Assembly: GCA_000690595.2 (NCBI GenBank)
Contig: JHUT02000001.1
Span: 1-64,000 of the forward strand
Origin: Natrinema mahii
GTDB taxonomy: Archaea; Halobacteriota; Halobacteria; Halobacteriales; Natrialbaceae
Direction of reading: 5' to 3'
DNA length: 64,000 nt
Positions 7,138-36,768 of the stretch are shown one piece after another. The notes below the pieces were generated by a model. It made no database searches. It had not been told where the DNA came from and worked only from the letters and a program-made list of their open reading frames with translations. Made by a program: the position numbers and the translations under genes. How positions within the stretch are numbered: position 1 is the first letter of the stretch; the number at the start of each line of letters is the position of its first letter.

Positions 7138-8069
7138 TGCAGGAACCAGCTACGTTTAAACGATTGCGAAACGCGGATGTTGCGGTCATGCACGATGACG
7201 TCGAGGAGACCTACTGGTGGCTCCTTCGATCGTTACCTGCAATTGACTATCTCGGCTTCTCAGCGTTCACCTATCCGACGTCATGGCGGACACTCAATAC
7301 TGGCGGACAATTTCAATCGTATACGCAGCAGTATGATTACCTAGACTATGAGTACAAAGTTCTGGGTCAGATCGAGGAAGAAACCTATGATAGCGATTTA
7401 GTGGTCATCACCAATGAGTACTACGAGTCTGAAACACAGTACTCAGTCGACCACCTCGTAAGTCGGTACTCTTCCCGTCCCGAAACACTTCTCGTCGTAA
7501 CCGACTCTCGGCGATTCACGCCACATGGGGGACAGCGTCCACTCTACCAGGAGCAATTCGTAGAGCGGATTGGACCATATCAACGGCTGTATGATGCATA
7601 CGAATCCGTGTATAAAGATGCTGGATGGGAGCTGTCGCTCATCGACACGAAGAATCTATTTCTTCACGACAACGCGAACCTCTACGAGATCGTGGACGGA
7701 GACTCGTTAGAAACGACTGAGGAGCTGTTTGCGGTACTCCCAGATTCCCCGTATCTCCCACTCTACCGTGTATTTGGTGAGATTTTCGGACGGGAAGATG
7801 AATATGGAACGGTTCCGTTAGACGAGGATGACGTCACTGGGCTCGAACGCTGGCTTCGACGTCGTATCGAGTGGGATCGTGGAACAGCTAAAGACGTGGC
7901 CCAAAAATTGAACAGAGCAGTAGGCGAAGAGGGGCGTACGTTCGATCCTTCGTATGCAGCACGGAGCCCGGAAGTCCGTGAAGCACACCAGACTTCGAAA
8001 CAAATCGATCCAAATGAATCGTCAATCCACAAACGCTATCACAATTGGTTACAGCAAGAGTTCCAATGA
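7137..8069 (+). CDS. Unrecognised 310-residue operon protein
   Basis: Starts at the ATG overlapping the TGA of the helicase (TGATG at 7135-7139) and ends overlapping the next ATG (8066), so it is tightly coupled to both neighbours. I do not recognise the family. The protein is rich in aromatic residues, with patterned stretches LLVVTDSRRFTPHGG (about residue 119) and WELSLIDTKNLFLHDNANL (about 163); the hydrophobic beta-strand followed by DSR could be part of an alpha/beta fold. There is no membrane segment, no cysteine cluster and no visible P-loop. It has no clear counterpart in the bacterial dpd order that I can name, so it may be a partner specific to the archaeal version or a diverged subunit of the helicase before it. 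Confidence 0.6.
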   Translation: MQEPATFKRLRNADVAVMHDDVEETYWWLLRSLPAIDYLGFSAFTYPTSWRTLNTGGQFQSYTQQYDYLDYEYKVLGQIEEETYDSDLVVITNEYYESETQYSVDHLVSRYSSRPETLLVVTDSRRFTPHGGQRPLYQEQFVERIGPYQRLYDAYESVYKDAGWELSLIDTKNLFLHDNANLYEIVDGDSLETTEELFAVLPDSPYLPLYRVFGEIFGREDEYGTVPLDEDDVTGLERWLRRRIEWDRGTAKDVAQKLNRAVGEEGRTFDPSYAARSPEVREAHQTSKQIDPNESSIHKRYHNWLQQEFQ

Positions 8070-8905
8070 GCAGTAGTGAGGGTTACATACTGAACGCGGT
8101 TCAGACACCGGGCCCACTCTTTCCGGTCTATCGCTCTGTCGAGGGGGGACACAGCACGAAAAGTGAGATACAAGCAGACACCGGTATCGATTCAGGCTTG
8201 GATGCCGCGATAGGAGGCTTACAGCTACTCCATCTCATAGGTAGAGAAGATGGCGAGTATTATACGAGCTCCTATCAGTGGAACGTAGACTCAGACGAAC
8301 TCGGATTCAAGTTGACTGCATTGCACAATCTCGCACAAGAGTGCGTATCCGGTGCTTGGGGAAAGCAAGCCGTCGTTCTTCTCAACTATAGCTACCTCTT
8401 GCGAAATGACATCCAATATTTCGAGAATAACGAGGAATCGGTCTATAACGGAATCGATGGTTGGTTCAAAGAAATAAACTACCAGCCACAATCACAACAG
8501 GGACTCATCACACATAACGATAATAAGTTCGCAAATTGGACACGACTCGTCCACTTCCTTGGTCTCGTCCACAAGGTCCGCGGGCGAGAACACACGGTCT
8601 ATCCAGACCCCGAGCTGATCCGAAAATCGCTTGAGTTCGCGACTGACGATACTGGTATCGACGTCGACGGAACACCAGGGATAGAGATGGAAGAGTATCT
8701 CCGATGGCTTCGGGAGAATCTCCTGTACGTCGAATCGACATCTGATGGAGATATCCCAGAAGGACTTTCCCGTGTACTCTTCGAACTCGTCCGAAATGAC
8801 GAGATACAGATCGTCGAGTACGGAGACGCCGGTACAGTGGGATTAGGTGGTATTCCTCCTTACGAAGGAATCGACAGCCAAGCGAATACAATTACCTTGA
8901 TCTAA
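8066..8905 (+). CDS. DpdG-like protein (by position)
   Basis: A 279-residue protein starting at an ATG that overlaps the preceding stop (ATGA). The N-terminal 70 residues look like a winged helix (GGHSTKSEIQADTGI then GLDAAIGGLQLLHLIGREDGEYY, with the strand pair ending in an aromatic wing). The rest is mostly helical, with a second helix-turn-helix-like part (FANWTRLVHFLGLVHK, about residue 155). It sits directly before the large P-loop ATPase, as DpdG sits before DpdH in bacterial dpd clusters. The name rests on position and size, not on a recognised motif. It probably forms an adapter or DNA-contact subunit of the restriction complex (inference). Confidence 0.5.
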   Translation: MSSSEGYILNAVQTPGPLFPVYRSVEGGHSTKSEIQADTGIDSGLDAAIGGLQLLHLIGREDGEYYTSSYQWNVDSDELGFKLTALHNLAQECVSGAWGKQAVVLLNYSYLLRNDIQYFENNEESVYNGIDGWFKEINYQPQSQQGLITHNDNKFANWTRLVHFLGLVHKVRGREHTVYPDPELIRKSLEFATDDTGIDVDGTPGIEMEEYLRWLRENLLYVESTSDGDIPEGLSRVLFELVRNDEIQIVEYGDAGTVGLGGIPPYEGIDSQANTITLI

Positions 8906-8906: not shown

Positions 8907-11849
8907 ATGAGTACTGAACAAGATCTTCAAGCACAACGTTCGCATCTCTATTGCCCGCACTTCCAGAACGTCGACGAAAAGACGCTCCGTCAGCTGTTCT
9001 CGAAGGTGGCAGCGGTTCGATCAGATAACCGTGATCTCTTCGATTTTACTCATCGGCCAATCAAAGTATTCCGATCGCCACAAGGTACACAAGCGGAAGA
9101 AGAGATCGTTAGCGAAGAAGCAGTCTACCGTGAGTTTTCCGATGAACGGGTTGGAAACTTCACTGTCGTAATTGAAGGTGAGGTCGGAACTGGGAAGTCA
9201 GAGCTTTGTGCTTATCTGGCACATCGGTTAAGAGACAACGACAGACCGATCCTTCACGTCGATAAGGACGACGACTTGATGACGTTACTTTCGGAGCGAA
9301 TCCCCGAATTCTACGAAGAACAATTCGGTGAGGAGCTCCCCGGAGCGTCGAATTTCAAGCAACTAAAGGACGACCTCGAGCAGAATGGTCGAGTCGTCGC
9401 AAACAATGCGACGTCTGGGGCCATCCTAAATCTGAGTGCTCATGGATATAATGTCCATGTTCAGGACAAGGAAGACGACATTCGAGACTTCGTCCAGGAA
9501 CAACTCTCTTTACTCGTCGAGAAGGGGGAATACGCTAAGGAGATCAAATTCGTTACCGAGCAGGCGTATCGACGAAACGACTTCCTCCAGATTTTCGAGG
9601 ATGACGTCGATAAGAGCGATGCAGTAGATGCGTTCAACAAGGAACTCTGGCGGGAAATTCGTGATCGATATCAGACCGCCTCGCTTGACGATGTTTTGGA
9701 GCGAGTCGGGCAGAAGTTCACCGATACGCGTCCGGTCATAATCTTCGAGGACTTCGCGATCACAGCGATGGAGGGCCAGCAGCTCCGAAATTACATGGAG
9801 CGTGACAAGCCAAGCGATAACTGGGATTTCGTTGTCGCTGGTACGCGCGACTCCACTCAGGTCCTTCACACGCGGACTGCTGAAGATCGGTTCGAATTCT
9901 ATCGCACGAACAGACAGAATTCGAACCAAGTTCTCTTCTTGGATGAAGATTCAGCGGTCGACTTCATCCGCCCGTATCTTGGTTATTTCAAATCCTTCGA
10001 CAATAGCGTTACCTACGACCGGAGTGGAGAAGGACTCGAGATAGAATTAGAACCAGCCCCAACCGATTCAATTTGTGATAGGTGTGGATTCTGTGACGAA
10101 TCTTTCCGTGACCTCTTCCCCTTCAACGAGCCGTTCCTTCAGCGAATGTACGCCGGACTTCGCGAAGACGAACAGTCGCCTCGAGAGTACGTAATGGCCG
10201 TATTTGATGTCCTTCGGGATTACTACGAAGGCTACATCAATGTGCCATCCGATGCTGATCGTCTATCCACTCTCACTAATCCTGTTGATCCAGATACAGC
10301 GATTTACGAACGTGCTGAATCTTTCGCAAAACTCGGACGATGGTATGGCGTCCCGACAAAGAACGGAATAGAAGTCGATAGCCGTTTTGTCGAAGTGTTC
10401 GGCTTTTCCGAGATTGTCGATGAAATCAATGAAGTGGAAAGAAATAGAGATTCAGTACTGATTCCAACAGATATCGGCAACAGCGGAACCGGAATACGTA
10501 CCGGAAGAAGTGGTACCAGGACTGAAGGAGGTTCCGGGGCCGGAAGTGGAACCGAAGGAGGGACTGAAACCGGAACTAGTTCCGAACCACCGTCGCGGTC
10601 GAAAGCCGAACGACTGATCGACGAGCATCAACCGAACGTTCAACCGTGGCAGAAAAATCCGACTGATTTCCCAGAGATCAGTCGCTATCTCCGAGTCGGG
10701 CTTCGGGACGCGATGGAGCGCCTGACGAACGGATTTGAATTATTTGAGGGTATGTCACTCCGGTATAATCTGAGTAGTCAGAAAGACCCGTTCGTCTTCG
10801 AAACTCTGCAACGAGCACCCGATGACGACCAAATAGTGATCGATCCCCAAGAGTTCCGGCTCTCTGACCTCAAAAAACTCCTCGAGTTCGGAATCTACCG
10901 TCAAGAAGACAAAGCGAAGGCAGATTACGATGATTTGCTTCGGGAGCTCGGCACCCAACTAACTGGCTACGCAAGGATCTGGCAGCAGAAGGTTATAAAC
11001 AAGAATCTTCGATCGGACAGTCGTTTCTTCAAAAAATCGGTTAGATATGAATTCGAAGACTTCGTCTTGGCTGGCTATGCGAACGTGGTCATGCTCGACT
11101 CTCCGTTCAAAGAGATGAGTGCCAAAACACTAGGTGAGCGCTTCTCTGATGGAAATTCATACGGATTAGACCCGACGCTCAGATCGGAGTTGAAGTCGGA
11201 ACTGTCCAAGGACCAGTACGAGGCCATTACGAGATTCCTTGATTACGGCGAGTGGTTCGAAGAGATGATTAGCGCATTCTTCGGAGCTAATGCCAATACG
11301 CTTGATCTCTCGAAAATCCGAACCCATCTCGATAAAAATTCACCGTACGAAGTACTCGAGGGACTCGGGCGGCAGTATATTCAGGACATTTCACCTCGTG
11401 TTCGGTTTGACACCGATAACAAAATCCGGGATATCGCCAACCAGACGTATGATCTACAGAACGCGCTTGAAGAGGTGCGCGACGAGTACCGAACGACGGT
11501 GGTTGAGACGTTTACCCAAGAACTGTCTGATGTCTCTGTTTCGGAAATTGAGGCAGGCGTCAAGACCCTTCGTACCTACGATAGCGCCGATTCAGAAATG
11601 ATCGAGTCACTTAGCAAGTTTATCGAACTCGACCAATCGGAAATCAATGATGCGGTTTCTGCTGCTGAGAGGGCAACTGATCTGTCTGAAGGCGACCCTA
11701 GCGAAAAGTTACAGGGAACGCTCATCAGTATGAAACTCGCGTCCTCTAATATCTACGGTCGATACTCAGATGTTACGATCGTCGGAGGAGGATCGGCATC
11801 AGAATTTGCTGAACACTTCCAATCCGTTGGGGAGCATTATGTCAACTGA
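8907..11849 (+). CDS. Large P-loop ATPase, DpdH-like
   Basis: A 980-residue cytosolic ATPase. A leader with the pattern FTHRPIKVFRS (about residues 47-57) precedes Walker A GEVGTGKSE (91-99); Walker B is VIIFED (277-282) and a sensor-like stretch VAGTRDST follows near 313. The arrangement of a His-Pro-x-x-x-x-Arg-Ser element before the P-loop recalls bacterial DpdH as I remember it. A CDRCGFCDESF zinc-type pair is near residue 392. A Gly/Ser/Thr-rich low-complexity linker (about 520-566) separates the ATPase half from a helical C-terminal half. One base separates it from the preceding stop, and its end overlaps the next gene by 11 bases. By family analogy it powers the restriction arm of a Dpd system; BREX-type large ATPases (BrxC/PglY) are the closest alternative. 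Confidence 0.6.
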   Translation: MSTEQDLQAQRSHLYCPHFQNVDEKTLRQLFSKVAAVRSDNRDLFDFTHRPIKVFRSPQGTQAEEEIVSEEAVYREFSDERVGNFTVVIEGEVGTGKSELCAYLAHRLRDNDRPILHVDKDDDLMTLLSERIPEFYEEQFGEELPGASNFKQLKDDLEQNGRVVANNATSGAILNLSAHGYNVHVQDKEDDIRDFVQEQLSLLVEKGEYAKEIKFVTEQAYRRNDFLQIFEDDVDKSDAVDAFNKELWREIRDRYQTASLDDVLERVGQKFTDTRPVIIFEDFAITAMEGQQLRNYMERDKPSDNWDFVVAGTRDSTQVLHTRTAEDRFEFYRTNRQNSNQVLFLDEDSAVDFIRPYLGYFKSFDNSVTYDRSGEGLEIELEPAPTDSICDRCGFCDESFRDLFPFNEPFLQRMYAGLREDEQSPREYVMAVFDVLRDYYEGYINVPSDADRLSTLTNPVDPDTAIYERAESFAKLGRWYGVPTKNGIEVDSRFVEVFGFSEIVDEINEVERNRDSVLIPTDIGNSGTGIRTGRSGTRTEGGSGAGSGTEGGTETGTSSEPPSRSKAERLIDEHQPNVQPWQKNPTDFPEISRYLRVGLRDAMERLTNGFELFEGMSLRYNLSSQKDPFVFETLQRAPDDDQIVIDPQEFRLSDLKKLLEFGIYRQEDKAKADYDDLLRELGTQLTGYARIWQQKVINKNLRSDSRFFKKSVRYEFEDFVLAGYANVVMLDSPFKEMSAKTLGERFSDGNSYGLDPTLRSELKSELSKDQYEAITRFLDYGEWFEEMISAFFGANANTLDLSKIRTHLDKNSPYEVLEGLGRQYIQDISPRVRFDTDNKIRDIANQTYDLQNALEEVRDEYRTTVVETFTQELSDVSVSEIEAGVKTLRTYDSADSEMIESLSKFIELDQSEINDAVSAAERATDLSEGDPSEKLQGTLISMKLASSNIYGRYSDVTIVGGGSASEFAEHFQSVGEHYVN

Positions 11850-12519
11850 TACAAAGTCGCTCGAGGATCGATTGAATAGCGTTATTGAGGAACACCGCCG
11901 CCGCCATCTTTCCGATGAACTCGATGAGATTGCCGTGACGATGGAGGAGACTATTCTCCAACGGGTCCTCGCAAAAGCGTTCTTCGACGAGGACATCGAG
12001 TTCGAGTCGGAAACAAAGGAACAGGTGCAAGAAGTACTAACGCTACTCGAGCAGAACAGATACGAAGAAATTGAAGAACGGTTAGATGACCTTCGAAAAG
12101 ACGTCGAGACCGCAGAGACAACAGTAGAGAATCGCATTCAGGAACTTCGGCTTAAACATAACTCGACTGTTGCTGCCATGCGCCGTCTGAATAACCGAGT
12201 TGACCGAGTTAGCGGAATGCGACTTCAGGCTCTTGAAGGTCTTCTCGGGGACTGGCGCTGGAAGGAACACGTCTATCTCAACGATGATGCCGATCTTGAC
12301 GAGCTCAAAGAGAACGCCCGACAGTACGGAAATGAGATGCGAACGGCGTTCGATGAGCTCCAAGAAGAGATGTTCGGTGCTTACCCCGAAGAGATTAGGG
12401 ACCTTATTCATCGGATGATCGACGATGAACGATTATCTTACGACGATCTCACCGATAATCAACGAAAGCTCCTTGCAGAGTCAGATGTTGGTGAGTACAT
12501 CGAACTCACTTTATCCTAA
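11839..12519 (+). CDS. Coiled-coil protein, DpdI-like by position
   Basis: A 226-residue, strongly charged helical protein that starts (ATG 11839) inside the end of the ATPase gene. Residues about 40-120 have heptad-like Leu/Ile/Val spacing (FVxxEx, EEIEERLDDLRKDVETAE), a long coiled coil, and the tail has further amphipathic helices (IRDLIHRMIDDERLSYDDL). There are no catalytic or metal-binding motifs. It lies between the DpdH-like ATPase and the second giant helicase, where bacterial clusters carry dpdI. It could be a structural bridge between the ATPase and helicase (inference). The overlap implies coupled translation in a fixed ratio with the ATPase. Confidence 0.5.
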   Translation: MSTDTKSLEDRLNSVIEEHRRRHLSDELDEIAVTMEETILQRVLAKAFFDEDIEFESETKEQVQEVLTLLEQNRYEEIEERLDDLRKDVETAETTVENRIQELRLKHNSTVAAMRRLNNRVDRVSGMRLQALEGLLGDWRWKEHVYLNDDADLDELKENARQYGNEMRTAFDELQEEMFGAYPEEIRDLIHRMIDDERLSYDDLTDNQRKLLAESDVGEYIELTLS

Positions 12520-12604: not shown

Positions 12605-15600
12605 ATGCAATTCATAGATCGACACACCAATTCTTCGCGATTAGACGACGACATACGTCAACTCATCGAAGGAATCCTCTATAACCGCCGGATCTTCGAC
12701 GCTGAACAGGATGACCCCCCATTTGTCACAGAAGCAGTAAAGTATCGACGTGAACGTCAGGACCGCCGACAGACGAGTGAATATACCGGATCAGATCCAT
12801 TCGTAAATGATATCCTCAAGCTGTTTGACTTCGAAGAGCCATTGGATTTCCAAGTCGAGAGCTGGCAGACGGTAGACGAATTGGATCACGACCGTCTCAA
12901 GTCAAACGAGAGCAAAGCAGCCATCTTTTCCGCTCCGACCGGGTTTGGGAAGACAGAAGCATTTTTAGGACCTCTCTATCAACTTCTCCGAGAAGAGCGT
13001 CAAGAGTCGACAGCGATCGTCTATCCGAGCCGGGCTTTGCTTCAAGACCAATTAGGCCGTATCCTCAAACACATTCACGAAATCGAGTCTCAATTCAATG
13101 AACAGCTTTCTGTCGGGATATACGTCGGCGGAATGCCGTATGAGATAAGCGACGTCGAAACCGATACAACCTTCTTCGAAACGAAAGGTGGCCATCCCAG
13201 ATTCAAGCTCGCTAACTGCTGGTGTGGTGAAGAAGGCTCACCAAATGCATTCGAGTTTCACGGGTCGTCGAGGGGATATACGCTGAAGTGTGAGAACAAC
13301 GATAACCACTCCTTCACTGACCGCGATATTCTCCTTTCGCGCCAGGATATGGTGTTCAACAATCAGCCGGATATTCTCCTTACGACGCTCGAATCTCTCG
13401 AAGGGTTTGCGTTGAAGCCTCACTATCCCCTGATCGACAATATCGAGACGATTGTCCTGGATGAAGTTCATTTGAATACTCAGATGCGAGGAGCACATGC
13501 AGCCAACATCATTCGAAATATAAATGAAATAACTGATCACCCGATTCTGTGGCTCGGTTCCAGTGCTACGATCGATAGTGCCGAACAGTTCGGCAAGCAA
13601 CTCTTCGGAGTCTCGAGTAACAACATTCGAACAGTAGAACCAAGGGAATCGGATTTCGACGACGATCACGAGGATTACGAGCACTACTATTTCATGCTGG
13701 CGTCGGAAGACGGTCCGGGTGCTTCCTCGATGTCAATCCAGCAGCACCTACTCTTCGGACATAGCCTTCTCGAGCAGTCATCCGGCGAACGAGGGAAAAT
13801 GCTTGCATTCATCGACAGCATCTCCCAAGTGAATCAGAAATACACACAGCTCGTTGACGCCGATCACAATCGAGAACTGTGGCGATACCATCTCGGCTCC
13901 GACGATGTCGAAGACTGGACTCAGGTCGCACGAGAGATGGATCACAACTTCCTCGATGAGCATCTCGAGTTTATGCCGGTGTACTCCGACCGAGGATTTG
14001 ACTCAGCCGAAGTCGCTAATAGTGACGTGTTGCTTTCCACGTCATTTCTGGAGGTCGGCATCGACGTTGGGGAAATCAAGACGATTACTCAGTATCGAAC
14101 ACCATGGGATCTCTCCTCGTTCCAGCAGCGAGCAGGGCGCGCTGCCCGGAAAGAAGGGATGGATGCACACATCGCTGTCATGCTTTCTGGACTTACCAGC
14201 GATGCAAATATGTTCTATCGGGCGGATCGATTCCTGGATTCCGATATTCGCACCCCACTGAAAACCGACAACGAAGTCGTTGAGTGGATTCATAGTCGAT
14301 TTCGAGATTATTACGAGACTGCGAGTGACATCAGTAGCCGAAACCTCCGACTTCAGAACCCACACGAGCTCTTCCTGGAGGAGTATCTCGATAACCAGCT
14401 CGACTACACCAAGTACCGGCAGCTAATACTTTCACCAGATGACTTCTTCGATGAAGAGTTCGATATTAACGTATCACCTGAGGCCCTACTTTCTGAGGAG
14501 CTCGTAAACGAAACGAGAGAGAGTCTTGAGGAATACCACGCTAACTTGCAAGAAGAGTTCGACGAGATTGAGTCGTTCTTCGGTTTAGACGATGGCAATG
14601 TCGTACGTGGTGAAGACGCGGTTGACACCTACGTGCATAAGGTCCAAGAGCGAGTGCTAAAATTGATTAACGCTCTGTCCGGTCAGGTAGCGGGCTACAA
14701 GAACGAACTCGATTTGCTCGGCGAATCTACACAGACCACTGAAATCAAAGAACTGGAATCCGAACTAGAAACGCTTCGTGAGAGTGCATCTCGGATTCCG
14801 GATGGTAAAACGCAGACTAAGGTTCAACACTTCGAGACACTATTGGGAGATCTCTTCGGCCTGAGTGGTGATCTAATCAAGCTTCAGAGCAGAGTAAATC
14901 GAACGAGTGAAGAGCCGATACCACAGGTTCGAACTGATCGTCTTAATGAGGTACAGGAGGCAGTCACGCGACTCAATAATCTGAGTGATGACGATCGAAT
15001 CAAGGAGTACTACCGAACGCAGAAACGCATCTACTACCTCAAAGAGGCACTCGACGAACTTGAGCAGTACGTGGGTTTTAGAACGCCATACCTCAGTTTG
15101 TATGCGATCAAGAATCTTCTCCGCGGTGCATACTATCTGGATCGATGTCTCAGAACTGACGACCGAAATCTGGGTGAAATCTGGTACGTTCCACCCAATT
15201 ACTACGGTGACTCGGGACGATTCTTCCGCGTCTTAGACCCGGGGAGTCAAGGAGGATCTGATGAGTCGATAGACAAGCTCGTCAGTACATATACGCCGTA
15301 CCGCTCGGAATATCAGTCGGAAACGAACGAGATGCGGGCCTTCCTTCCGCATACACAAGTGACTGAGGACGGCGTGGAGTTTGATTTCTCAGAATACGTG
15401 AGTGGTGAAGTCCGTGATGGTGTCTTCGTACCAGATTCGATCGAACTGTCCTCTGTGACGGATCTCAGTGGAGATGCTGCACTCAACATCGTCCGATACT
15501 GTCCAGAGTGCTACCAGATAATCTCGGATCTAGACAACTGTCTTCGACACGGCAAGAGCGCATTAGGGAAAATTCACTCCGATCCCCAAGTGAGTACGCA

Positions 15601-16681
15601 AATCACCGACCGTGATGAGGTCGAAACGACAGGTACGATCTCATTAGCGGACGTCACCTCGGAAGTTACCCTCGAAGGCGTCACACTCGATATCCGACCG
15701 GCTAGCGACTGGGGCGGAGAGATAAACTTCGATGGCAGCGATCCGTTCGAAGTCGAGATTGAGAGCCCGGACGAGAAGCTTGGCTTCCAACTCGATACGC
15801 GTGGTCTCGTTTTCGATATGGATTCGTATCTCCAGAAGATCAAACAAGACGAAGTCCGTAAAGTTGCCGAGCAGTACACCGACTTCGATGACGCCGACTA
15901 CGAGTACGTCGCTTACCACACGGCTGCTCACTTCTTCCTTCAGCTTGTTTCAGACATCAGTGCCGTCAACACGACAATGTTGTTCTATGGATTCAATCCG
16001 GAGACAGGCGAGGTTTACGTTTTTGAGCGTACGGAAGGAGGTCAAGGAATCGTCGATTTGGTCTATAACGAACTCTCTAGAGATCCGGGGACCGCCCTCG
16101 AGGCGATCAATCGAATCGCGTACAATCCCCAGGTCATCAACGAGCGGCTTTGGGCTCAAGAAGACTTCATCGATCAGTTACCGACTGATCCGGAAGAAGA
16201 GGCTGCTATTGAGTCGGTCGTCGATAAATTCTTGGAAAACCCGTTCGATTCCGTTTTAGAGCGAGTCGTTCAGGAGGTACTCTCTAGCGTCGACAAAGCT
16301 ACCCAGTTCGCGAAAGACGAGAATCTCGATATCGGAGAGACATATCGGGTCAAACACGTAATCGCTCAGGAGCAGCTCGACGGAAATGATGAATTCCCAG
16401 AAGAGGCAGTCACAGCGTTAAATCTTGGCCTCTCCGAGATTGATCGAACCAAGACTGTGTTTTACTCACCTGATATCGACGGTTGTGTCGAGAATCTGCA
16501 TCTCAGCGAGTGTATCGCAGCGACTGACCAGAGTGATTCGCTAAGCTACATTCTTCTCGAAGAACTCCGAGACCATCTTATCCGTAGTGTCCCTACGAGC
16601 GAAACAAGCAAAGAGATGTTCAAACGTAACTCTCCCCCAGCAGGTGAATTCGATGGTACAAGCATATTCCTTGACTTCTGA
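12605..16681 (+). CDS. Giant SF2 helicase, DpdJ-like
   Basis: A 1358-residue helicase, close to the length of bacterial DpdJ. Walker A is SAPTGFGKTEAF (about residue 112), motif II is the variant DEVH in IVLDEVHLN (about 283), motif III is GSSATIDSA (about 319), motif V is TSFLEVGIDVG (about 478) and motif VI is FQQRAGRAARKEG (about 504). A long coiled coil covers about 640-760 and a CPECYQII cysteine pair lies near 965. The C-terminal part has AHFFLQL (about 1107) and ERTEGGQGIVDLVY (about 1142), the DUF1998-like signature with its Gly-rich turn, and ends with paired cysteines near 1294-1302. It is a DNA translocase or helicase of the restriction module. The 3' end overlaps the PLD gene by 29 bases. 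Confidence 0.72.
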   Translation: MQFIDRHTNSSRLDDDIRQLIEGILYNRRIFDAEQDDPPFVTEAVKYRRERQDRRQTSEYTGSDPFVNDILKLFDFEEPLDFQVESWQTVDELDHDRLKSNESKAAIFSAPTGFGKTEAFLGPLYQLLREERQESTAIVYPSRALLQDQLGRILKHIHEIESQFNEQLSVGIYVGGMPYEISDVETDTTFFETKGGHPRFKLANCWCGEEGSPNAFEFHGSSRGYTLKCENNDNHSFTDRDILLSRQDMVFNNQPDILLTTLESLEGFALKPHYPLIDNIETIVLDEVHLNTQMRGAHAANIIRNINEITDHPILWLGSSATIDSAEQFGKQLFGVSSNNIRTVEPRESDFDDDHEDYEHYYFMLASEDGPGASSMSIQQHLLFGHSLLEQSSGERGKMLAFIDSISQVNQKYTQLVDADHNRELWRYHLGSDDVEDWTQVAREMDHNFLDEHLEFMPVYSDRGFDSAEVANSDVLLSTSFLEVGIDVGEIKTITQYRTPWDLSSFQQRAGRAARKEGMDAHIAVMLSGLTSDANMFYRADRFLDSDIRTPLKTDNEVVEWIHSRFRDYYETASDISSRNLRLQNPHELFLEEYLDNQLDYTKYRQLILSPDDFFDEEFDINVSPEALLSEELVNETRESLEEYHANLQEEFDEIESFFGLDDGNVVRGEDAVDTYVHKVQERVLKLINALSGQVAGYKNELDLLGESTQTTEIKELESELETLRESASRIPDGKTQTKVQHFETLLGDLFGLSGDLIKLQSRVNRTSEEPIPQVRTDRLNEVQEAVTRLNNLSDDDRIKEYYRTQKRIYYLKEALDELEQYVGFRTPYLSLYAIKNLLRGAYYLDRCLRTDDRNLGEIWYVPPNYYGDSGRFFRVLDPGSQGGSDESIDKLVSTYTPYRSEYQSETNEMRAFLPHTQVTEDGVEFDFSEYVSGEVRDGVFVPDSIELSSVTDLSGDAALNIVRYCPECYQIISDLDNCLRHGKSALGKIHSDPQVSTQITDRDEVETTGTISLADVTSEVTLEGVTLDIRPASDWGGEINFDGSDPFEVEIESPDEKLGFQLDTRGLVFDMDSYLQKIKQDEVRKVAEQYTDFDDADYEYVAYHTAAHFFLQLVSDISAVNTTMLFYGFNPETGEVYVFERTEGGQGIVDLVYNELSRDPGTALEAINRIAYNPQVINERLWAQEDFIDQLPTDPEEEAAIESVVDKFLENPFDSVLERVVQEVLSSVDKATQFAKDENLDIGETYRVKHVIAQEQLDGNDEFPEEAVTALNLGLSEIDRTKTVFYSPDIDGCVENLHLSECIAATDQSDSLSYILLEELRDHLIRSVPTSETSKEMFKRNSPPAGEFDGTSIFLDF

Positions 16682-17102
16682 AAGCCTCTCGTACTTTATC
16701 GGGTTCTCGCTACTACACAGTGACCGTGTCGTCATTGTCTCGCCGTGGTTGAGCGACGTCACGCTCCGACTTCCGGTCAATGACCGTTTCGAAGGTCGCG
16801 AAGTTCGGCTTCTACAGGCACTGGAAGAATTTTCAGATAAAGAGATCCATATTCTCGTCTGTGAGGGTGAAAATCATAACGAGTATATCAAGAATCGGCT
16901 TCCAGACCACGTTCACCTACAGGAAATTGACGATCTTCACGCAAAGGCCGTTGTTTGTGATGAATTCGTCTACATGGGGTCAGCAAATATCACTCACGGC
17001 GGTTTGACTTTGAATCGTGAATTATGTGAGGTGCTCGAGAACGAATACAACTCCGCTGGAGAATACGTGCGAAGAAAGCTTGACTTGGAGGTCAATCTAT
17101 AA
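16653..17102 (+). CDS. Phospholipase D-like nuclease, DpdK-like
   Basis: A 149-residue protein with one HKD motif: HAKAVVCDEFVYMGSANITHG (H-x-K near residue 95, then the usual G-S-x-N). One HKD per chain means it should work as a dimer, like other small PLD nucleases. Upstream segments VVIVSPWLSDV and EIHILVC are the beta-strands normal for the fold. Small PLD proteins close both bacterial dpd operons (DpdK) and DISARM operons (DrmC). The start at 16653 (ATG) lies inside the helicase gene; longer frames from 16587 have no better signal. It is the last gene of the operon and probably the DNA-cleaving effector (inference). Confidence 0.75.
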   Translation: MVQAYSLTSESLSYFIGFSLLHSDRVVIVSPWLSDVTLRLPVNDRFEGREVRLLQALEEFSDKEIHILVCEGENHNEYIKNRLPDHVHLQEIDDLHAKAVVCDEFVYMGSANITHGGLTLNRELCEVLENEYNSAGEYVRRKLDLEVNL

Positions 17103-17148: not shown

Positions 17149-17895
17149 TTACCACTCATCAACTGAAGTTTGATTTACTGGGGTAGAATTGATTTGGTAC
17201 TCCGTGAGCTGTTTCCACCCCAAACCTTGTTTCCGTAACAAGCGTTTCACCTTATTACCGACCTCAGGTGCAACGAGAATACCTCGTACTGACGCGTCGT
17301 CGGACTTTCGAAAATAGGAAACGTATCGGTGGAGTTGATCGACGTGAGAGTACTGAGCTACAGGCTGCTTGATTTCGAGGATTACGTTGTTACCATCTGT
17401 ATCTGCCCCGTAGAAGTCAATCCGACCGTGGGGCGTCCAACGTTCGTGTTCGATAATACGGAGTCCTTCTTCGATCTCTTCGGGATTCGACTGAATGAAC
17501 TCGTGCATCTGGTTTTCGGTCTGGTTCTCTTGTAGAATCGCCTCATCCGTGGCACTGCTTCGTACTGCAAGTGAGGCATCAGTGATATCGACTCGAATTT
17601 GCTCACTCTGGCCTTTTGCCGCATATATCCGAAGAAAATCGTCGATGAGGACTGTTTCGAGCGAACTCCCTATACCTTGTCGGGCTACCGCACGAGCACC
17701 AGTTGGCCGATGAACTGTTACTGCTCCGTCTTTTTTACAGATGATTAGACGCTCTCCTTCGCCGATCTTCCCCTCTCTGGCACCAGTATATTCAACTCTG
17801 CACGTCGCAAAAATCGTCACCAGATCTCCTTCAGCGTGAGCTCTAGAAACAAAATCAGTGAGTTCCCCCAGGCTAGGTGACTGAATGGATCTCAT
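17149..17895 (-). CDS. nucS: NucS/EndoMS endonuclease
   Basis: A 248-residue protein with the NucS layout: an N-terminal beta-rich DNA-binding half (EGDLVTIFATCRVEYTGARE) and a C-terminal PD-(D/E)XK nuclease. The catalytic residues are Asp160 in RIDFYGAD, Glu174 and Lys176 in LEIKQP, followed by QLHRYV. With the ATG at 17895 these numbers match those I recall for Pyrococcus NucS, which supports this start over the ATG at 17934. NucS cuts both strands at mismatches and at branched or single-stranded DNA. Here it overlaps a cluster for DNA base modification, follows the Nmad-like gene by 7 bases and converges with the PLD gene. Its role may be repair of, or attack on, altered DNA (inference). 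Confidence 0.82.
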   Translation of the reverse strand: MRSIQSPSLGELTDFVSRAHAEGDLVTIFATCRVEYTGAREGKIGEGERLIICKKDGAVTVHRPTGARAVARQGIGSSLETVLIDDFLRIYAAKGQSEQIRVDITDASLAVRSSATDEAILQENQTENQMHEFIQSNPEEIEEGLRIIEHERWTPHGRIDFYGADTDGNNVILEIKQPVAQYSHVDQLHRYVSYFRKSDDASVRGILVAPEVGNKVKRLLRKQGLGWKQLTEYQINSTPVNQTSVDEW

Positions 17896-17902
17896 CACTC
17901 GA

Positions 17903-19186: not shown

Positions 19187-19210
19187 CCTTTCAGATATGA
19201 CACTAGGGTG

Positions 19211-19218
19211 TTATAAAT
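19211..19218 (-). promoter_or_regulatory. TATA-like promoter of the Nmad-like/nucS unit
   Basis: On the minus strand this reads TTTATAA, about 28 bases before the ATG at 19186. The spacing implies a leaderless transcript, as is usual in haloarchaea. Confidence 0.5.
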
Positions 19219-19384
19219 GATGTGGTGATTGAAGGGCGTTTAAGAACCCTCCCTAACTCCATGCGATTTCAACTTCGTTAGCTAATTTATCCGTTGATTG
19301 AACGCAGAGCTCATCCCAAAGCTATCGGACTCATTTACTCCAGTGAAAGGAAACTACCATTTCAAATTTACTGACCAGCAGAAA

Positions 19385-19394
19385 CTATTATAAC
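19385..19394 (+). promoter_or_regulatory. TATA-like promoter of the modification operon
   Basis: CTATTATAAC ends 28 bases before the ATG at 19422, so transcription should start at or near the codon. With the minus-strand box at 19211-19218 it makes 19187-19421 a divergent promoter region. The rest of this 235-base stretch is AT-rich and shows no other feature. Confidence 0.5.
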
Positions 19395-19421
19395 ACTGCG
19401 TCAACGATCAGGGGTTAGGGC

Positions 19422-19883
19422 ATGTCGACGTTACTCGTTCAATCTTGTTCAAAGTCTAAAAATGAGGTAGATGAACCCGTCTCAGCGCTCGAATTGTACT
19501 CTGGCTACTTCTTCAAAATAATCAAGAAGTCGATACGAGAAGGCGCTGAAAATTCAGATATTGATATGTGTATTCTTTCGGCTAAACATGGAATAGTCAA
19601 CCCAAACGAACAGATTTCCCCATATGACCAGCGAATGGATGCCAAACGTGCGCAGGAAATTGGGCCAAAAGTAAGAAAACAACTTCGACGTCGGATCAGT
19701 GAGAATAGTTATAATAATATTGTTATAAATGCGGGAAAAGACTATCAACGGGCTCTCGAGGGCTTCGATGATGATTTGGACGTTACTACGTTTGTGATTC
19801 AGGGAGAGGGAATCGGGATGAAAGGACGTGCACTGAAACAGTTCCTCCGAGGCGATCGGTCAGGCGTTGCGAGGGTGCACTAA
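19422..19883 (+). CDS. DUF6884/YaaA-like Cys-Ser-motif protein
   Basis: A 153-residue protein. The opening LLVQSCSKSKNEV puts a Cys-Ser-x-x-Lys motif on the first loop, followed by LYSGYFF, ILSAKHGIVNPNEQISPYD and a C-terminal NAGKDYQRALEGF. This is the DUF6884/YaaA-like pattern found beside TGT paralogues in phages and dpd-type clusters. The same layout (LLFIPCSQKK, then GMYGPV, then SKTYRQVIENAF) occurs in the C-terminal ArcS-type domain of the TGT fusion at 23271, so the two are probably distant homologues. It may bind DNA or the modified base for the transglycosylase (inference). The stop overlaps the next ATG (TAATG), indicating coupling to the first TGT gene. Confidence 0.65.
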   Translation: MSTLLVQSCSKSKNEVDEPVSALELYSGYFFKIIKKSIREGAENSDIDMCILSAKHGIVNPNEQISPYDQRMDAKRAQEIGPKVRKQLRRRISENSYNNIVINAGKDYQRALEGFDDDLDVTTFVIQGEGIGMKGRALKQFLRGDRSGVARVH

Positions 19884-21133
19884 TGTCGCAGACTGACTCA
19901 CTCTCAGCTGTTGACTTTGAGGTCTCAGCGACGGCAGGAGACGCTCGTACTGGAACACTGTCTATCGGTGAAACTGAGATCCGAACACCAAATCTTTTCC
20001 CAGTACTGAATTTCTATGGAGGGGGTACAAAAAACAGTGTATACGGTGGAGGAATCCACCGGACGGTAAAGGAATTCATGATTAGCGCCGATCGAGTCGG
20101 TGCCGGTGATTATTCTGAGTTCTTCGATGGTGTTCTCACATCTGTTTCTTCCCTTACGGATTACAACGTGACTCGGGAACGCTATGAGGATTATATTGCA
20201 GCCCCGATCAAAGAACGAGACGTCTTCTCACCGTTCTCTGGTACATTGTTTATCGATTCTGGAGGGTTCAAATTCCTCAATAATGATGGAATCGATGGGA
20301 GCAATTTTCAGGTCAACATCGATCAGAAAACAGCATACGAAATTCAGCGGAGGATGGGTGCGGATATTATCGTTAATCTTGACCGGCCAATCGCACCAGA
20401 CGATAGCCATGAGCAACGAATAGAGAAAGCTCGAAAGACTGGCGAAAATATTGAGGAATTCCTCCGCCTGTCATCCGATTTCGATGGAGCTCGTTTCCTT
20501 ACGCTCCATGGATATAATTACTCCATGATGGATGCATTTCTCACAGAGATCACGAAGTATTGTAGCGCTGAAACACTTTGTTCGTCGTTCGACGGCATAG
20601 CATTGGGTAGCCTTGTTCCGAAGAAGGACGACAGAAGCGCGCTCATCGATGCGGTCATTGATTGTCGAAGGGTGCTTTCTGATTGGGGGTTCGACGATCT
20701 CCCCCTCCACGTTCTGGGAATCTCGAGTCGGGCAATCCCACTGCTTACTGCTCTTGGAGTCGACTCTTTCGATTCATCTACCTACCTCCAAACAGCGATA
20801 AACGGCGGGTATTTTGTATCCTTGATGGAGACTGTAAATGTGTCTGAGGCGGATTTCGAGCAATGTAACTGTCCCGTGTGTTCGTCGGATCTCTTGCGAG
20901 GATGGATGGAAGATAAAGAAAACGCACCGTATCAGAAAGACAGGCTAGGTGCCGTTGCGATGCATAATCTGATCGTTCAAAAACGAGAGATGGCTAAGAT
21001 TCGGGACTGCATCAGTCGTAGCGAAACAGAACCGCTGATTCAATATATCGAATCGACGGTCGCACAGGATAAACCGACTAGAGAGTTTGCACATCGAGTT
21101 GTCAACCATTCGCTTGGAGGGTATTCCTTATGA
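19883..21133 (+). CDS. TGT-like DNA transglycosylase 1 (DpdA-like)
   Basis: A 416-residue member of the tRNA-guanine transglycosylase superfamily. It keeps the substrate-pocket loop FIDSGGFKF (about residue 125), NLDRPIAP (about 164), GIALGSLVP (about 238) and the nucleophile segment GVDSFDSSTYLQTA (about 291). The TGT zinc site is present as CNCPVC (about 328-333) plus a His in AMHN (about 360). There is no PUA domain, so tRNA binding is unlikely; position beside dpd-like genes points to DNA as the substrate, with guanine exchanged for preQ0. It could be the catalytic or the partner half of a pair with the second TGT at 23271, as in eukaryotic QTRT1/QTRT2. Its end overlaps the GHKL gene (ATGA). 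Confidence 0.78.
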   Translation: MSQTDSLSAVDFEVSATAGDARTGTLSIGETEIRTPNLFPVLNFYGGGTKNSVYGGGIHRTVKEFMISADRVGAGDYSEFFDGVLTSVSSLTDYNVTRERYEDYIAAPIKERDVFSPFSGTLFIDSGGFKFLNNDGIDGSNFQVNIDQKTAYEIQRRMGADIIVNLDRPIAPDDSHEQRIEKARKTGENIEEFLRLSSDFDGARFLTLHGYNYSMMDAFLTEITKYCSAETLCSSFDGIALGSLVPKKDDRSALIDAVIDCRRVLSDWGFDDLPLHVLGISSRAIPLLTALGVDSFDSSTYLQTAINGGYFVSLMETVNVSEADFEQCNCPVCSSDLLRGWMEDKENAPYQKDRLGAVAMHNLIVQKREMAKIRDCISRSETEPLIQYIESTVAQDKPTREFAHRVVNHSLGGYSL

Positions 21134-22683
21134 AAAAACATCCAAAAGTTAACGAAGTTAACGAGTTCCTCGAAATTGCTAGCGACTTCGAAGACCCACT
21201 CGAGGTAATCCGCGAGTCGCTATCGAACGCCTACGATGCAAATGCATCGGACGTTGAAATCGAAATCAAAAGCCGTGAAATGGGATCTGATATCATCATC
21301 GATGACGATGGTGATGGAATGGACGAGCGCGATCTCGAATCGTTTTTCGACCTCGGGAATTCACGAAAAACAGATTCGATCGGATACAAAGGCCACGGCA
21401 CGAAAATATTCTACAAGAGTGATCGTATCGTCGTAAGTACGGCAACTGACGATACTCATCTTCGCGCAAAAATGGAACAGCCTTGGGAAAAGCTCAACCG
21501 ACGCGAACTTCCCGAATACGAGGTGTCGGAGAGACCAGATAGTAAAGACCACACTGGAACCAGAATTCGTATTCGCAACTTCCGGTCCGGTGAGGGGTTC
21601 GATCCCGAGAAACTCACTTACAATAAGATCGAACACTATTTGAAGTGGAAAACCATTGCAGGCTCGACAGCTTATATGTTCGACGAGGAAGACCGGGAGA
21701 TGGACATTACCGTCCGGTTGGGCGATGAAATTGATGACTCACAGCCCAAACTCGAAACCACAAATCGATTCGAGTTTCCCGATCCGCAGGAAAAACCTGA
21801 CGAAGAGTCAGAATTCCCGGCGGAACGTATGTGCAAGCACTACGATCCTACTGAGATTGAGATAGAACACGACGGAGGGACATCTACTCTACAAATCGTC
21901 GGTATGGTCGGTGGCAAAGCAGCCCGAAACGAACTTCCTACTTACGGAAAGCATTCTGCGCAATTCGGAGTTTGGCTTGCGAAAGACCATATCAAAGTTG
22001 AACGATTAAACGAGGCTATTTCACACGACAACGAGTTTCTCCACTTCTTTTTCATAGTTAATTGCCAGGATATCGAACTTTCCGCGAATCGTGAAACAAT
22101 CCGGAACAAATCAAGCTCGGTGTTTCAGAAGCTCAAGGAAGAGGTCGAATACCACATGTCGAAGGTTGCACAGGACCCTTGGTTCAAAAAGTATCTCGAG
22201 CTTCGACGAGAAGCCGAGATTAAACGGCGAGCGAGGAAGCGTCGGTCGTCCCTGAAACAACGAAGAGAACGAGTGGAGTCCGAGGAAAAGAGCGAGCCGA
22301 CGAATCGGACGGAGGTTTTGCTTGAACTCGAGCGCTCGAACGGAACGGCGACGATGACGGTCGAAGACTTCGAACCGGACGCCGACGTTCACGCAATTGT
22401 CAGACAGAGTGGGAAGCTTAGGAACGCCGCAGTTCACTATTCACTAACTGATCATTTCGAAAATGAATTGACGTTTGAGGAGGTTGACCTCGTGATCTGT
22501 TGGGAATACGGTGACCCGGTAAAACTACGGGAGTACGAACGAAAGGGCTACCTCGGCGAGACGGTCGAAGTCGACCTCGACGAGAACGGATTATACTACG
22601 GAGACGACAATTCATACGTTGAAATTTTACCATTGAGTGAACAAATCGAATCTACTACAAAACAGGCCGTAGCTGATGATTGA
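21130..22683 (+). CDS. GHKL (Hsp90/MORC-like) ATPase
   Basis: A 517-residue protein with a clear GHKL ATP-binding fold: motif N is EVIRESLSNAYDAN (Glu29, Asn33), the G1 box is DDDGDGMD (58-65), a lid segment follows (FFDLGNSRKT) and the G2 box is GYKGHGTK (85-92). A middle domain runs to about residue 350, and a basic stretch RRARKRRSSLKQRRERV (about 364-380) could bind nucleic acid. The C-terminal 120 residues form a beta-rich domain without catalytic motifs. Related proteins dimerise through ATP to clamp DNA or clients. It is translationally coupled to TGT 1 (ATGA overlap) and to the nuclease-like gene after it. It is not part of the bacterial dpd set I know. Confidence 0.75.
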   Translation: MKKHPKVNEVNEFLEIASDFEDPLEVIRESLSNAYDANASDVEIEIKSREMGSDIIIDDDGDGMDERDLESFFDLGNSRKTDSIGYKGHGTKIFYKSDRIVVSTATDDTHLRAKMEQPWEKLNRRELPEYEVSERPDSKDHTGTRIRIRNFRSGEGFDPEKLTYNKIEHYLKWKTIAGSTAYMFDEEDREMDITVRLGDEIDDSQPKLETTNRFEFPDPQEKPDEESEFPAERMCKHYDPTEIEIEHDGGTSTLQIVGMVGGKAARNELPTYGKHSAQFGVWLAKDHIKVERLNEAISHDNEFLHFFFIVNCQDIELSANRETIRNKSSSVFQKLKEEVEYHMSKVAQDPWFKKYLELRREAEIKRRARKRRSSLKQRRERVESEEKSEPTNRTEVLLELERSNGTATMTVEDFEPDADVHAIVRQSGKLRNAAVHYSLTDHFENELTFEEVDLVICWEYGDPVKLREYERKGYLGETVEVDLDENGLYYGDDNSYVEILPLSEQIESTTKQAVADD

Positions 22684-23153
22684 TCACGATGGGTGAATTC
22701 GCTTCTGAAGTTCAAGTCTATATTCGAGATCGGCTCAAAGAGTCTCGTCCCTCTCTTTCGTGGGAAACGGAATACGATCTCGCAGGGACTCCTATCGATA
22801 TTGTCGGTACAAACGGAGAGACGATGGTAGCACTTGAATTAGAGTGGCGACGGGCGGACCCTGCTGATAACTCTGCGAAAATCTTCCGCCACCTCTATAT
22901 GGAGCAGATAGATGCGGACGAGGTACTCATCGCACAAATCTTCACCGGATACTATGATTTGACGAGTGGAGGTATCTCATCGAAGCGGAAAAACGCTGAA
23001 TTTGTTGGTAAGGTCGCTGCCGACTCGATTGATCATCTTTCGTATTATCCGATTCATCTCCCGATAGAGCCACCCAAGCGGGGAGAAGAGTGGCCGGAGT
23101 CGTGGGCTGAGGCTGCCGACGATACTGTCGAACAAATCATCGGTTGTCTTTAA
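22680..23153 (+). CDS. PD-(D/E)XK-like protein
   Basis: A 157-residue protein (ATG 22680 overlapping TGA; ATG 22689 is an alternative start). The core GTPIDIVG then MVALELEWRR places Asp40, Glu53 and Glu55 as in the restriction-endonuclease fold, with ExE instead of the usual ExK, and helices DNSAKIFRHLYMEQID follow. It may be an active nuclease with an altered third residue or an inactive relative. It pairs with the GHKL ATPase by overlap, a combination reminiscent of ATPase-nuclease defence pairs. No zinc site or membrane segment is present. Confidence 0.55.
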   Translation: MITMGEFASEVQVYIRDRLKESRPSLSWETEYDLAGTPIDIVGTNGETMVALELEWRRADPADNSAKIFRHLYMEQIDADEVLIAQIFTGYYDLTSGGISSKRKNAEFVGKVAADSIDHLSYYPIHLPIEPPKRGEEWPESWAEAADDTVEQIIGCL

Positions 23154-23270: not shown

Positions 23271-25301
23271 ATGGCGTCCTTCCGGGTAAAGACGGTCGGT
23301 GACGACGGATATGGGCGGATCGGTGAGTTGGACGTTACACACGGACCTATAGAGACGCCAGCGATGTTCCCTGTCGTCAACATGATTGGGGGAACGACTG
23401 TGGAGTCCGGTGGCGTCTGGAGTCGGATGCGGAACAAGCTCATCGACAAGGAGCACCTTCAGGGAATAATGTTCCAAGCGATGAGCTTTACTGATTATGG
23501 TGTATCTCCAGATAATTTGAACGATTTCTGGAGACAAAAGACGTTCCACGAGCGGTTCAACGAGCACGATGACCTCCCTAACCTCGATGCCCCGGTCTTT
23601 ATCGATTCGGGCGGGTTCAAGTTGATGAATTCCAATACATTTGGTGAGGCTCCAGAAAAAGGTGGTGTGCCGAATGAGTGGGGGCTTTACACAGATCCAA
23701 AAAGCATCCTCGGTCTACAGCTCGATTTCGGTGCCGATATCGTTGCAACCCTCGACTATCCAATTCCCCCGAATCTGAAAGAGGACGAGAAAACCGAGCG
23801 GATGAATCGGAGTATCGATAGTGCAGTCGAGTGTCTTCGTATCCTCGATGAACCAGCACTTCTCGAAGAAAGTTTCTCCATCAACAGTCGTGCGGCTGAT
23901 CGCCTTCGCGAGCGAAAGGCCGCCGGAGAAGAACCGAGCGTCTACATTGCACTCCATGGGCACGATTACGAGACGATCAACTGGTACGTAGGTAGTTTCC
24001 TCAACCGAATTTCCGAACACGATCTCGATAGCTCGTTTCAGGGATTTGCAGTGGGGTCGCTCGTTCCGCTCCGAGACAGTATGGATATTTTAGTCGATAT
24101 CGTCCAAGGCGCCAAAGACGCTATCCCTGAGGAGCGTTCGGACGAAATCGGCTTACACGTTTTCGGCGTAGGTGGGAAACAGGTCGGGTTGCTTTCTCTC
24201 CTCGGTGTGGATACGTTCGACTGTTCGACGCACATGCAGACTGCACGGTACAAGAAGTATCTTCACCCAGACACCTGGGCAAATCATGAACTGGACGAAT
24301 TAGAAGACCATCTCGAACCAGACGGCAGTTTCCCTTGCGACTTGCCCAACTGTCTTCTATGTGATGAGAACGAAGTTAGCTACGAAACGCTAATCGAAGA
24401 ACTCAACAGGGATTGGACGTACGAGGAACGAGAACGTGTGAAAGACAATGGTGGAAATATTAAAAGTGACTACTATGCTCTATTGGCGCGTCACAACTTC
24501 GAAGTCTACAATGAGGAGCTCAGACGAGTGCGAGAGGCGATTCGCGAAGGCCAACTTTTAGACTACGTTATCGGATTCGCGCGGAGTCACGACGATATTA
24601 AACGAGGGCTGAAAGAAGCGCAGATCAGGGACAAACGACTCAGAGCCGAACTCGAGTCTCGTGGCGCGTATGACCTGCTCCCCGGCTCTACACTGACGAG
24701 CGATCAGACGAAACTCTCGGAATGGGACGGTGGTGTCGATGAATCCGTCGACACCCAGCAAATCTCTCTGAAGCATAGTCCGAACGATTTCGATATTTTC
24801 ACGCGGTCCTACGAACCTCCATCGGCCAAAGAAATCCTCTTGTTTATTCCCTGTAGTCAAAAGAAGCCATATTCACAATCGCGAACCCATTCGATTCTTT
24901 TCGACAAACTCGGGCCCCGAGTCGACAACATCCACAAGGTGACCATCTCGGGTATGTACGGACCTGTGCCCGAATCTTTCGAACAAGAACAACCGGTTCT
25001 GGAGTACGATTACGTCCTTGCAAAGGAGGATATCGACCAAATTGAGTTAGTCACGAACCGCGTTCAACGATATCTCGTACAATACGGAGACCAGTTCGAC
25101 CACATCGTCGGGTACGTGACGAGTAAAACCTACCGTCAAGTCATCGAAAATGCGTTCGATGAGTTCGGACGCGGCAAGGTTTTTCCCCAAGAACCAAAAG
25201 CGTTACAGCTTACAGAGTTTTTCAGAAACGAAAATATCCAAGAGCTCCTTGACTATTTGGACCAGCATACAGCTGATGATCTGAGTGACCAACATTCGTA
25301 A
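23271..25301 (+). CDS. TGT-like DNA transglycosylase 2 fused to an ArcS-type domain
   Basis: A 676-residue fusion. Residues 1 to about 430 are a TGT fold with FIDSGGFKLM (about 112), TLDYPIPP (about 159), FAVGSLVP (about 259), the nucleophile segment GVDTFDCSTHMQTA (about 311) and a zinc site CDLPNCLLC (about 356-364) plus His near 406. Residues about 520-660 contain PCSQKKPYSQSRTH (about 527-540), which fits the PCSxxKPYxxSxSH signature of archaeosine synthase ArcS, followed by VTISGMYGPVP. ArcS modifies preQ0 in archaeal tRNA (lysine addition and then archaeosine with a radical SAM partner). No PUA domain is seen. Inference: the protein swaps guanine for preQ0 in DNA and converts it further. 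A 117-base gap separates it from the previous gene. Confidence 0.78.
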   Translation: MASFRVKTVGDDGYGRIGELDVTHGPIETPAMFPVVNMIGGTTVESGGVWSRMRNKLIDKEHLQGIMFQAMSFTDYGVSPDNLNDFWRQKTFHERFNEHDDLPNLDAPVFIDSGGFKLMNSNTFGEAPEKGGVPNEWGLYTDPKSILGLQLDFGADIVATLDYPIPPNLKEDEKTERMNRSIDSAVECLRILDEPALLEESFSINSRAADRLRERKAAGEEPSVYIALHGHDYETINWYVGSFLNRISEHDLDSSFQGFAVGSLVPLRDSMDILVDIVQGAKDAIPEERSDEIGLHVFGVGGKQVGLLSLLGVDTFDCSTHMQTARYKKYLHPDTWANHELDELEDHLEPDGSFPCDLPNCLLCDENEVSYETLIEELNRDWTYEERERVKDNGGNIKSDYYALLARHNFEVYNEELRRVREAIREGQLLDYVIGFARSHDDIKRGLKEAQIRDKRLRAELESRGAYDLLPGSTLTSDQTKLSEWDGGVDESVDTQQISLKHSPNDFDIFTRSYEPPSAKEILLFIPCSQKKPYSQSRTHSILFDKLGPRVDNIHKVTISGMYGPVPESFEQEQPVLEYDYVLAKEDIDQIELVTNRVQRYLVQYGDQFDHIVGYVTSKTYRQVIENAFDEFGRGKVFPQEPKALQLTEFFRNENIQELLDYLDQHTADDLSDQHS

Positions 25302-36584: not shown

Positions 36585-36653
36585 CTGTTACCCCCACGCC
36601 GTCCGGCGAATGTGTTTGCCGTTCCGGCGAACGTAACTACCGGGCAATCAGTC

Positions 36654-36671: not shown

Positions 36672-36740
36672 TGCGATGCAGTCTTCCGAGCTTCGTAATA
36701 GTCCTGTGGCGGCAATGTGAATCACCATCTTGCCACGGAC

Positions 36741-36758: not shown

Positions 36759-36768
36759 GAGGAAGGAG

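Follow-up and report, generated by a model that had tools for sequence, protein, structure and literature searches.

DNA 7-deazaguanine modification in bacteria is described for systems in which DpdA is found together with DpdB. The bacterial Dpd islands comprise DpdA, DpdB, DpdC and DpdD-K (PMC11888242, PMC6884629); DUF6884 is the domain named dpdC, and queD, queC and queE are frequent neighbours of the islands, which were mined with dpdAB as a requirement, the phyla reported being all bacterial (PMC11888242). DNA-type transglycosylases (TGTs) also occur in the BRC systems, which are archaeal and bacterial defence loci defined by HerA/PglZ/BrxC-like genes (PMC12839542), and the DpdA of Halorubrum virus HRTV-29 has been discussed as a DNA modifier (PMC8651126). 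On the tRNA side, ArcS of T. kodakarensis transfers lysine to preQ0 and is active on the free preQ0 nucleoside and on RNA fragments (PMC11298593), so ArcS chemistry needs no tRNA body. What ArcS homologs do outside tRNA has been called less clear in the phage literature (PMC6884629), and our literature search found nothing on ArcS action on deoxynucleosides.

The window analysed here, 64,000 nucleotides of Natrinema mahii, contains at 23271..25301 (+ strand) an intact open reading frame with an ATG start. Its 676-aa product, which we call FUS, is a fusion of a TGT to an ArcS core (DUF5591 domain), as seen in Pfam and in an AlphaFold2 model; our literature search found no biochemistry for this family. 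We propose, with a probability of roughly 0.66, that FUS acts on DNA as a bifunctional 7-deazaguanine enzyme and that the island around it is a modification/restriction system of Dpd-like type; FUS is likely to consist of a DNA preQ0 transglycosylase and a nitrile-modifying domain.

A Dpd-like island around FUS

FUS is preceded on the same strand by four genes. The first encodes a DpdC-like DUF6884 protein with CSxSK and LSAxHG motifs (19422..19883; PF21818, 69.4 bits; PADLOC DpdC, 2.2e-5), and the second a DpdA-like transglycosylase of 416 aa, TGT-A (19883..21133; PF01702, 91.7 bits; DpdA, 1e-5), which reaches 27.6 bits against NCBIfam DpdA (cut-off 200). These are followed by a GHKL ATPase (21130..22683; HATPase_c_3) and by a 157-aa protein with no assigned function, occasionally conserved in the neighbourhood comparison (22680..23153). 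The region upstream of this operon, also on the + strand, encodes two large helicases as well as a DpdH-like ATPase and a PLD protein resembling DpdK. The first helicase (2404..7137) has DEAD/DEAH and MZB domains, resembles those of Dpd, Druantia and BREX, and belongs to a restriction-type module with which two further proteins travel in the neighbourhood comparison (7044..8069 and 8045..8905). It is followed by the DpdH-like AAA/STAND ATPase (8907..11849; PADLOC DpdH, 7.6e-10), a helicase-module protein with no assigned function, found by neighbourhood comparison (11770..12519), the DpdJ-like helicase (12605..16681; PADLOC, 1e-50; NCBIfam DpdJ, 167 bits against a cut-off of 800) and the DpdK-like PLD nuclease (16587..17102; PADLOC DpdK, 5.6e-12). 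The Dpd homologies of the island genes all lie under the NCBIfam cut-offs. Between the two groups, an Nmad3-domain protein and a NucS-type nuclease are encoded by overlapping genes on the opposite strand (17149-19186), which are absent from all other FUS neighbourhoods compared.

Because FUS co-occurs with a second TGT, a GHKL ATPase, DUF6884, QueC/D/E and DpdH/DpdJ/DpdK-like genes, the locus appears to be a Dpd-like DNA-modification island, and it suggests that Halobacteria modify DNA with 7-deazaguanines in a Dpd-like manner, from islands on both chromosomes and plasmids. It shares with bacterial Dpd (PMC11888242, PMC6884629) the TGT enzyme, the DUF6884/DpdC domain, the preQ0 genes, genes that resemble DpdH/J/K by PADLOC and the setting in a genomic island. 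However, it has two TGTs, one of them fused to an ArcS core, and a GHKL ATPase; no DpdB was found among the scanned island ORFs, and a profile search with NF041061 (DpdD) gave no match. That the GHKL ATPase substitutes for DpdB would be a guess. The BRC systems (PMC12839542) likewise include a DNA-type TGT, but a Pfam scan of island ORFs found neither HerA/FtsK nor PglZ, the DUF87 trace in 8907-11849 falling far under cut-off, and no BrxC-like gene was found. Elsewhere, Haloarcula sinaiiensis plasmid pHsi139 (6569-15061 of the extracted locus) has a TGT gene whose neighbours are QueE, a QueD-like gene and one for a BREX ATP-binding protein; this may be a BRC locus that brings along preQ0 genes of its own.

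The first 26 kb of the window have a GC content of 0.46-0.53, which rises to 0.63-0.70 past 36 kb. Integrases at 27428 and 35478, the latter recognised by similarity to the former, and a tRNA-Glu at 36768 mark the island edge; the second integrase-like ORF lies beside the tRNA-Glu at the GC jump (35478-36843, - strand), the likely edge itself. A direct repeat of the tRNA end was considered as an att site and rejected, its second copy being absent from the window. Outside the island, the genome has one strong QueC match and its own RaSEA, so the host should have both preQ0 and the enzyme for the last step to archaeosine.

The two halves of FUS

The TGT half of FUS scores 96.7 bits against PF01702 (cut-off 26.3; residues 13-351 and a second stretch), and the whole-chain AlphaFold2 model (pLDDT 80.3) shows the TGT fold, with archaeosine TGT as its best PDB match (1iq8, 3.7e-19). 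Within the domain (residues 13-451; 23307..24623, + strand), alignment with real TGTs identifies the pocket (D112-S-G-G-F, D162, H229 and G262-S-L-V-P-L, through L267), the nucleophile D317 in GVDTFD and a zinc site made of C356, C361, C364 and H408 (24336..24494, + strand). The DSGG pocket, D162, D317 and the zinc ligands are kept across FUS orthologs, apart from one zinc cysteine replaced in one ortholog. The preliminary description, which had reported a complete TGT with pocket, nucleophile and zinc site, was thus correct on this point. H229 takes the place of the Q in the 'VQG' motif of tRNA TGTs, and in the alignment this H is common to TGT-A and a BRC-type haloarchaeal TGT.

FUS could also be a second tRNA archaeosine enzyme of the archaeon, uniting tRNA transglycosylase and ArcS, and its top HMM matches are indeed the tRNA enzymes TgtA and ArcS. 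Yet these scores are far under the equivalog cut-offs, at 108.2 bits for the N-terminal half against TgtA (TIGR00432, cut-off 350) and 111.6 bits for the C-terminal half against ArcS (NF040592, curated cut-off 440). FUS also has no PUA domain, is patchily distributed on islands and plasmids among restriction-type neighbours, and has homologs in cyanobacteria, while the host retains its own TgtA, ArcS and RaSEA. We therefore regard a second tRNA enzyme as very improbable. In a maximum-likelihood tree, FUS (cyanobacterial homologs included) and TGT-A each form a group of their own, and neither group falls within the tRNA-TGT clade; the placement of a few long branches is unsure. Since the HMM score of FUS to TgtA (108 bits) exceeds that to NCBIfam DpdA (cut-off 200), which gave no match, its proposed DNA specificity is drawn from gene context and this tree.

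The ArcS core (residues 499-676; 24765..25298, + strand) was delimited by PF17884, hhalign to ArcS and the model. It matches DUF5591 (PF17884) at 70.2 bits over residues 511-637 (cut-off 26) and, together with the absence of PUA from the Pfam scan, agrees with the earlier account of an ArcS-signature domain after the TGT. The signature itself, PCSQKKPYSQSRTH (residues 527-540; 24849..24890, + strand), came from alignments; when all six frames of the window are translated it occurs a single time, against a chance expectation of about 5e-9 per protein. Among 24 FUS proteins that are 37-79% identical to the one in the window, the C, S, K, P, Y and S of the signature never vary. A set of 31 diverse proteins likewise shows no change in these residues, in the G-x-V-P and E further on or in Y579/R622, all of them common to ArcS; in two of the 31, H540 is replaced by Q. 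In all, the FUS core and ArcS have in common P527, C528, S529, K532, P533, Y534, S535, S537 and H540, and further along G564, V566, P567, E571, Y579, Y621 and R622. The alignment of catalytic residues proposed earlier thus gives a divided answer: FUS retains the PCSxxKPYSxSxxH core yet differs at many other ArcS-invariant positions, namely TSP, YPAxHYD (H578, D580), VTGxW and H615, having S-G-x-Y563, L583, no W and Y615 instead.

In hhalign profile comparisons the core matches ArcS at 99.4% (E 4.5e-21) and DUF6884 at 88% (E 3e-6). Because all of these match, and ArcS best, profile comparison places the FUS core, ArcS and DUF6884 in one superfamily, with FUS on the ArcS side. A structure prediction against ArcS had also been suggested, and the C-domain model (residues 499-676; pLDDT 87.7, pTM 0.86) has AF0587 (2q07), an ArcS-like entry, as its sole PDB match below 1e-3; a profile search with the C-domain found the same entry. 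DpdC/YaaA structures, considered as fold matches, were absent from the top 50. The core might instead be non-catalytic and bind DNA or a base so as to read or position the modified base, as YaaA/DUF6884 relatives have been described as DNA-binding (PMC11701544) and some FUS proteins have Q for H540. The invariance of C, S, K, P, Y, S, G-x-V-P, E and Y579/R622 over 31 diverse proteins and ArcS argues against such a role, which we consider improbable.

The fusion stressed in the preliminary description is real, but by itself it is not new. The host ArcS (583 aa, on another contig) likewise consists of a TGT half and DUF5591, with its pocket motif degraded. FUS and ArcS (TgtA2) thus share a TGT-like half followed by DUF5591 with its signature, whereas the novelty of FUS lies in its intact TGT half, the loss of PUA and its genomic context, in mobile defence-type islands.

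Distribution of FUS and its replacement

FUS is patchy, occurring in 38 of 391 Halobacteria genomes and 25 of 86 genera, and its carriers include Haloplanus ruber, Natrinema salsiterrestre and Halorubrum lipolyticum. Some of its loci are chromosomal, others sit on plasmids in Natrinema and Haladaptatus. TGT-A and the GHKL ATPase are confined to exactly the same 42 genomes, and FUS and TGT-A occur together in 37 of the 391, versus 4 expected (P 3e-45), so that 37 of the 38 FUS genomes carry TGT-A and GHKL. The last one (G236) was left out of the TGT-A set, as its only TGT-A match is FUS itself. DUF6884, TGT-A and GHKL are close to FUS in 21 of 28 other loci, and QueC/D/E in about one third of the loci sampled (QueE/QueC in 10, QueD in 9; FolE in 4). 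Four genomes (G115, G307, G137, G123) first seemed to have FUS as the sole TGT of the island, a reading rejected when TGT-A was found 13-34 kb off; FUS without TGT-A is seen only in G236 and in cyanobacteria. On a plasmid of Haladaptatus YSMS36, two facing FUS-type genes (673 and 653 aa) lie with DUF6884, TGT-A and GHKL (18001-22700 of the extracted locus).

The two TGTs of one operon may form a heterodimer rather than act as two independent exchangers. QTRT1 and QTRT2 act as such a TGT heterodimer. By analogy, FUS, TGT-A and GHKL would make one complex, in which FUS picks the target and the ArcS core acts on the shared product. The presence of TGT-A and GHKL in an identical set of 42 genomes, including 37 of 38 with FUS, is in keeping with this. 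However, both TGTs have full active sites, FUS occurs without TGT-A in cyanobacteria and G236, and TGT-A occurs without FUS in five islands, making such a complex unlikely in our estimate.

Outside the Halobacteria, Planktothrix and an Oscillatoriales MAG encode full-length FUS homologs (35-36%), in a cyanobacterial class where DUF5591 is otherwise rare (2 of 291 genomes). Downstream of these genes come a GmrSD_N (NsnA/PD-T4-2_A-like) gene and one for HEPN_MAE_28990, which would seem to be an effector pair of another kind (L119 4900-6638, L120 4900-6647); the neighbour was considered as a DpdB and matches GmrSD_N/NsnA instead. In Desulfovirgula and a Peptococcaceae MAG, a TGT and a stand-alone DUF5591 protein are encoded by adjacent, divergent and separate genes beside a HerA ATPase (L140 53-3456, L137 887-2783). 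No relatives of FUS were found in viral_contigs and no full-length match in the phage collection; an unannotated Staphylococcus phage record gave one partial match (22.6%) to the TGT half.

Five genomes carry TGT-A and GHKL without FUS; in these, genes for a 310-aa protein and a second DUF6884 lie ahead of the operon. The former matches no Pfam or PADLOC family and, as a single sequence, gives no hhalign signal to the FUS TGT; we identify it as a DpdA because it matches the DpdA of HRTV-29 (26-27%, E 2e-15), whose gene itself adjoins a DUF6884 gene. The viral pair (PMC8651126) thus resembles FUS in joining a DpdA-type exchanger with a YaaA-fold (DUF6884) protein, and has homologs in the FUS-less islands, but it consists of two small, separate proteins and lacks DUF5591. 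As this pair stands in for the absent FUS, the two halves of FUS probably carry out base exchange and the task of the YaaA-fold partner on DNA, and the replacement is our best evidence for this. The earlier proposal of FUS as an alternative to DpdC proves too simple, given a DUF6884 gene and a second TGT in the same operon and the extra DUF6884, with viral-type DpdA, in the five islands.

Our reading of FUS as a DNA enzyme therefore draws on the intact TGT site and ArcS core, the operon context, the co-occurrence and replacement patterns, the separate genes in Firmicutes (a Rosetta-stone relation), H229, the tree and the host's own tRNA set. Fusion, adjacency, co-occurrence and replacement tie an ArcS-type core to DNA-type transglycosylases in culturable archaea, cyanobacteria and Firmicutes.

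The proposed second step, its product and related fusions

We infer the following order of steps. The TGT half would exchange guanine in DNA for preQ0 that comes from the host or from QueCDE of the island; D317 would attack C1', while D112/D162/H229 would keep the base in place. The ArcS core would then attack the dPreQ0 nitrile, probably via C528 (as a thioimide) with K532/Y534/S537/H540, and an acceptor would convert this intermediate to an amidine or an amide. In haloarchaea, host RaSEA could turn a lysine adduct into dG+, whereas bacterial carriers that lack RaSEA would stop at the adduct or amide. The modified base would mark self DNA, with the DpdJ/DpdH/DpdK-like genes as the likely restriction arm.

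At least two products can be envisaged. First, FUS could possibly be a DNA archaeosine or lysine-adduct synthase. ArcS-type amine (lysine) addition is favoured because the KPYxxSxxH extension is kept in FUS and missing from DUF6884/DpdC, and the full ArcS signature is accompanied by RaSEA in 19 of 19 haloarchaeal genomes tested; still, we hold a lysine-type product to be somewhat doubtful. Second, the core could be a DpdC-type hydratase converting the nitrile to an amide, as the loss of ArcS-specific residues (T560/S561/P562/H578/D580/VTGxW/H615) and the replacement by a DpdC-domain protein favour hydration. DUF6884 is the DpdC domain (PMC11888242) and is paired with viral-type DpdA where FUS is absent. 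The 'SGxYG' of FUS is similar to the SGLYG of YaaA, and RaSEA had no match in the two cyanobacterial carriers (in Firmicutes its matches were sub-threshold only). On the other hand, the whole KPYSxSxxH signature is found in FUS and ArcS and missing from DUF6884, and most islands already carry DUF6884, which would make a second hydratase redundant. We regard the amide as a serious contender, though short of even odds. The remaining probability falls to some further product or to none.

Thus, of the earlier claim that ArcS-type chemistry is directed to DNA, the ArcS-family core stands, as does a probable DNA role, given context, phylogeny and the retained host TgtA, ArcS and RaSEA; the changed ArcS-invariant residues and the cyanobacterial carriers without a RaSEA match tell against the chemistry itself. 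That haloarchaeal chromosomal DNA bears dPreQ0-Lys, or dG+ via host RaSEA, as a self mark made by one TGT-ArcS protein is a tentative and rather doubtful proposal. If true, it would mean that ArcS chemistry has moved from tRNA to DNA and, to our knowledge, would be the first cellular (non-viral) DNA archaeosine-type mark; the question is directly testable by mass spectrometry on the DNA of named strains.

A related arrangement is found on Nostoc plasmid pNOS3756_2 (9560-11704 of the extracted locus), where a 714-aa DpdA (WP_331711066) also combines a TGT and a YaaA-superfamily domain in one chain, with a second small TGT 3 kb off. In this protein the DUF6884 is N-terminal, in contrast to the C-terminal ArcS core of FUS. 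Because the domain order is opposite, fusions of TGT and YaaA-superfamily domains probably arose more than once.
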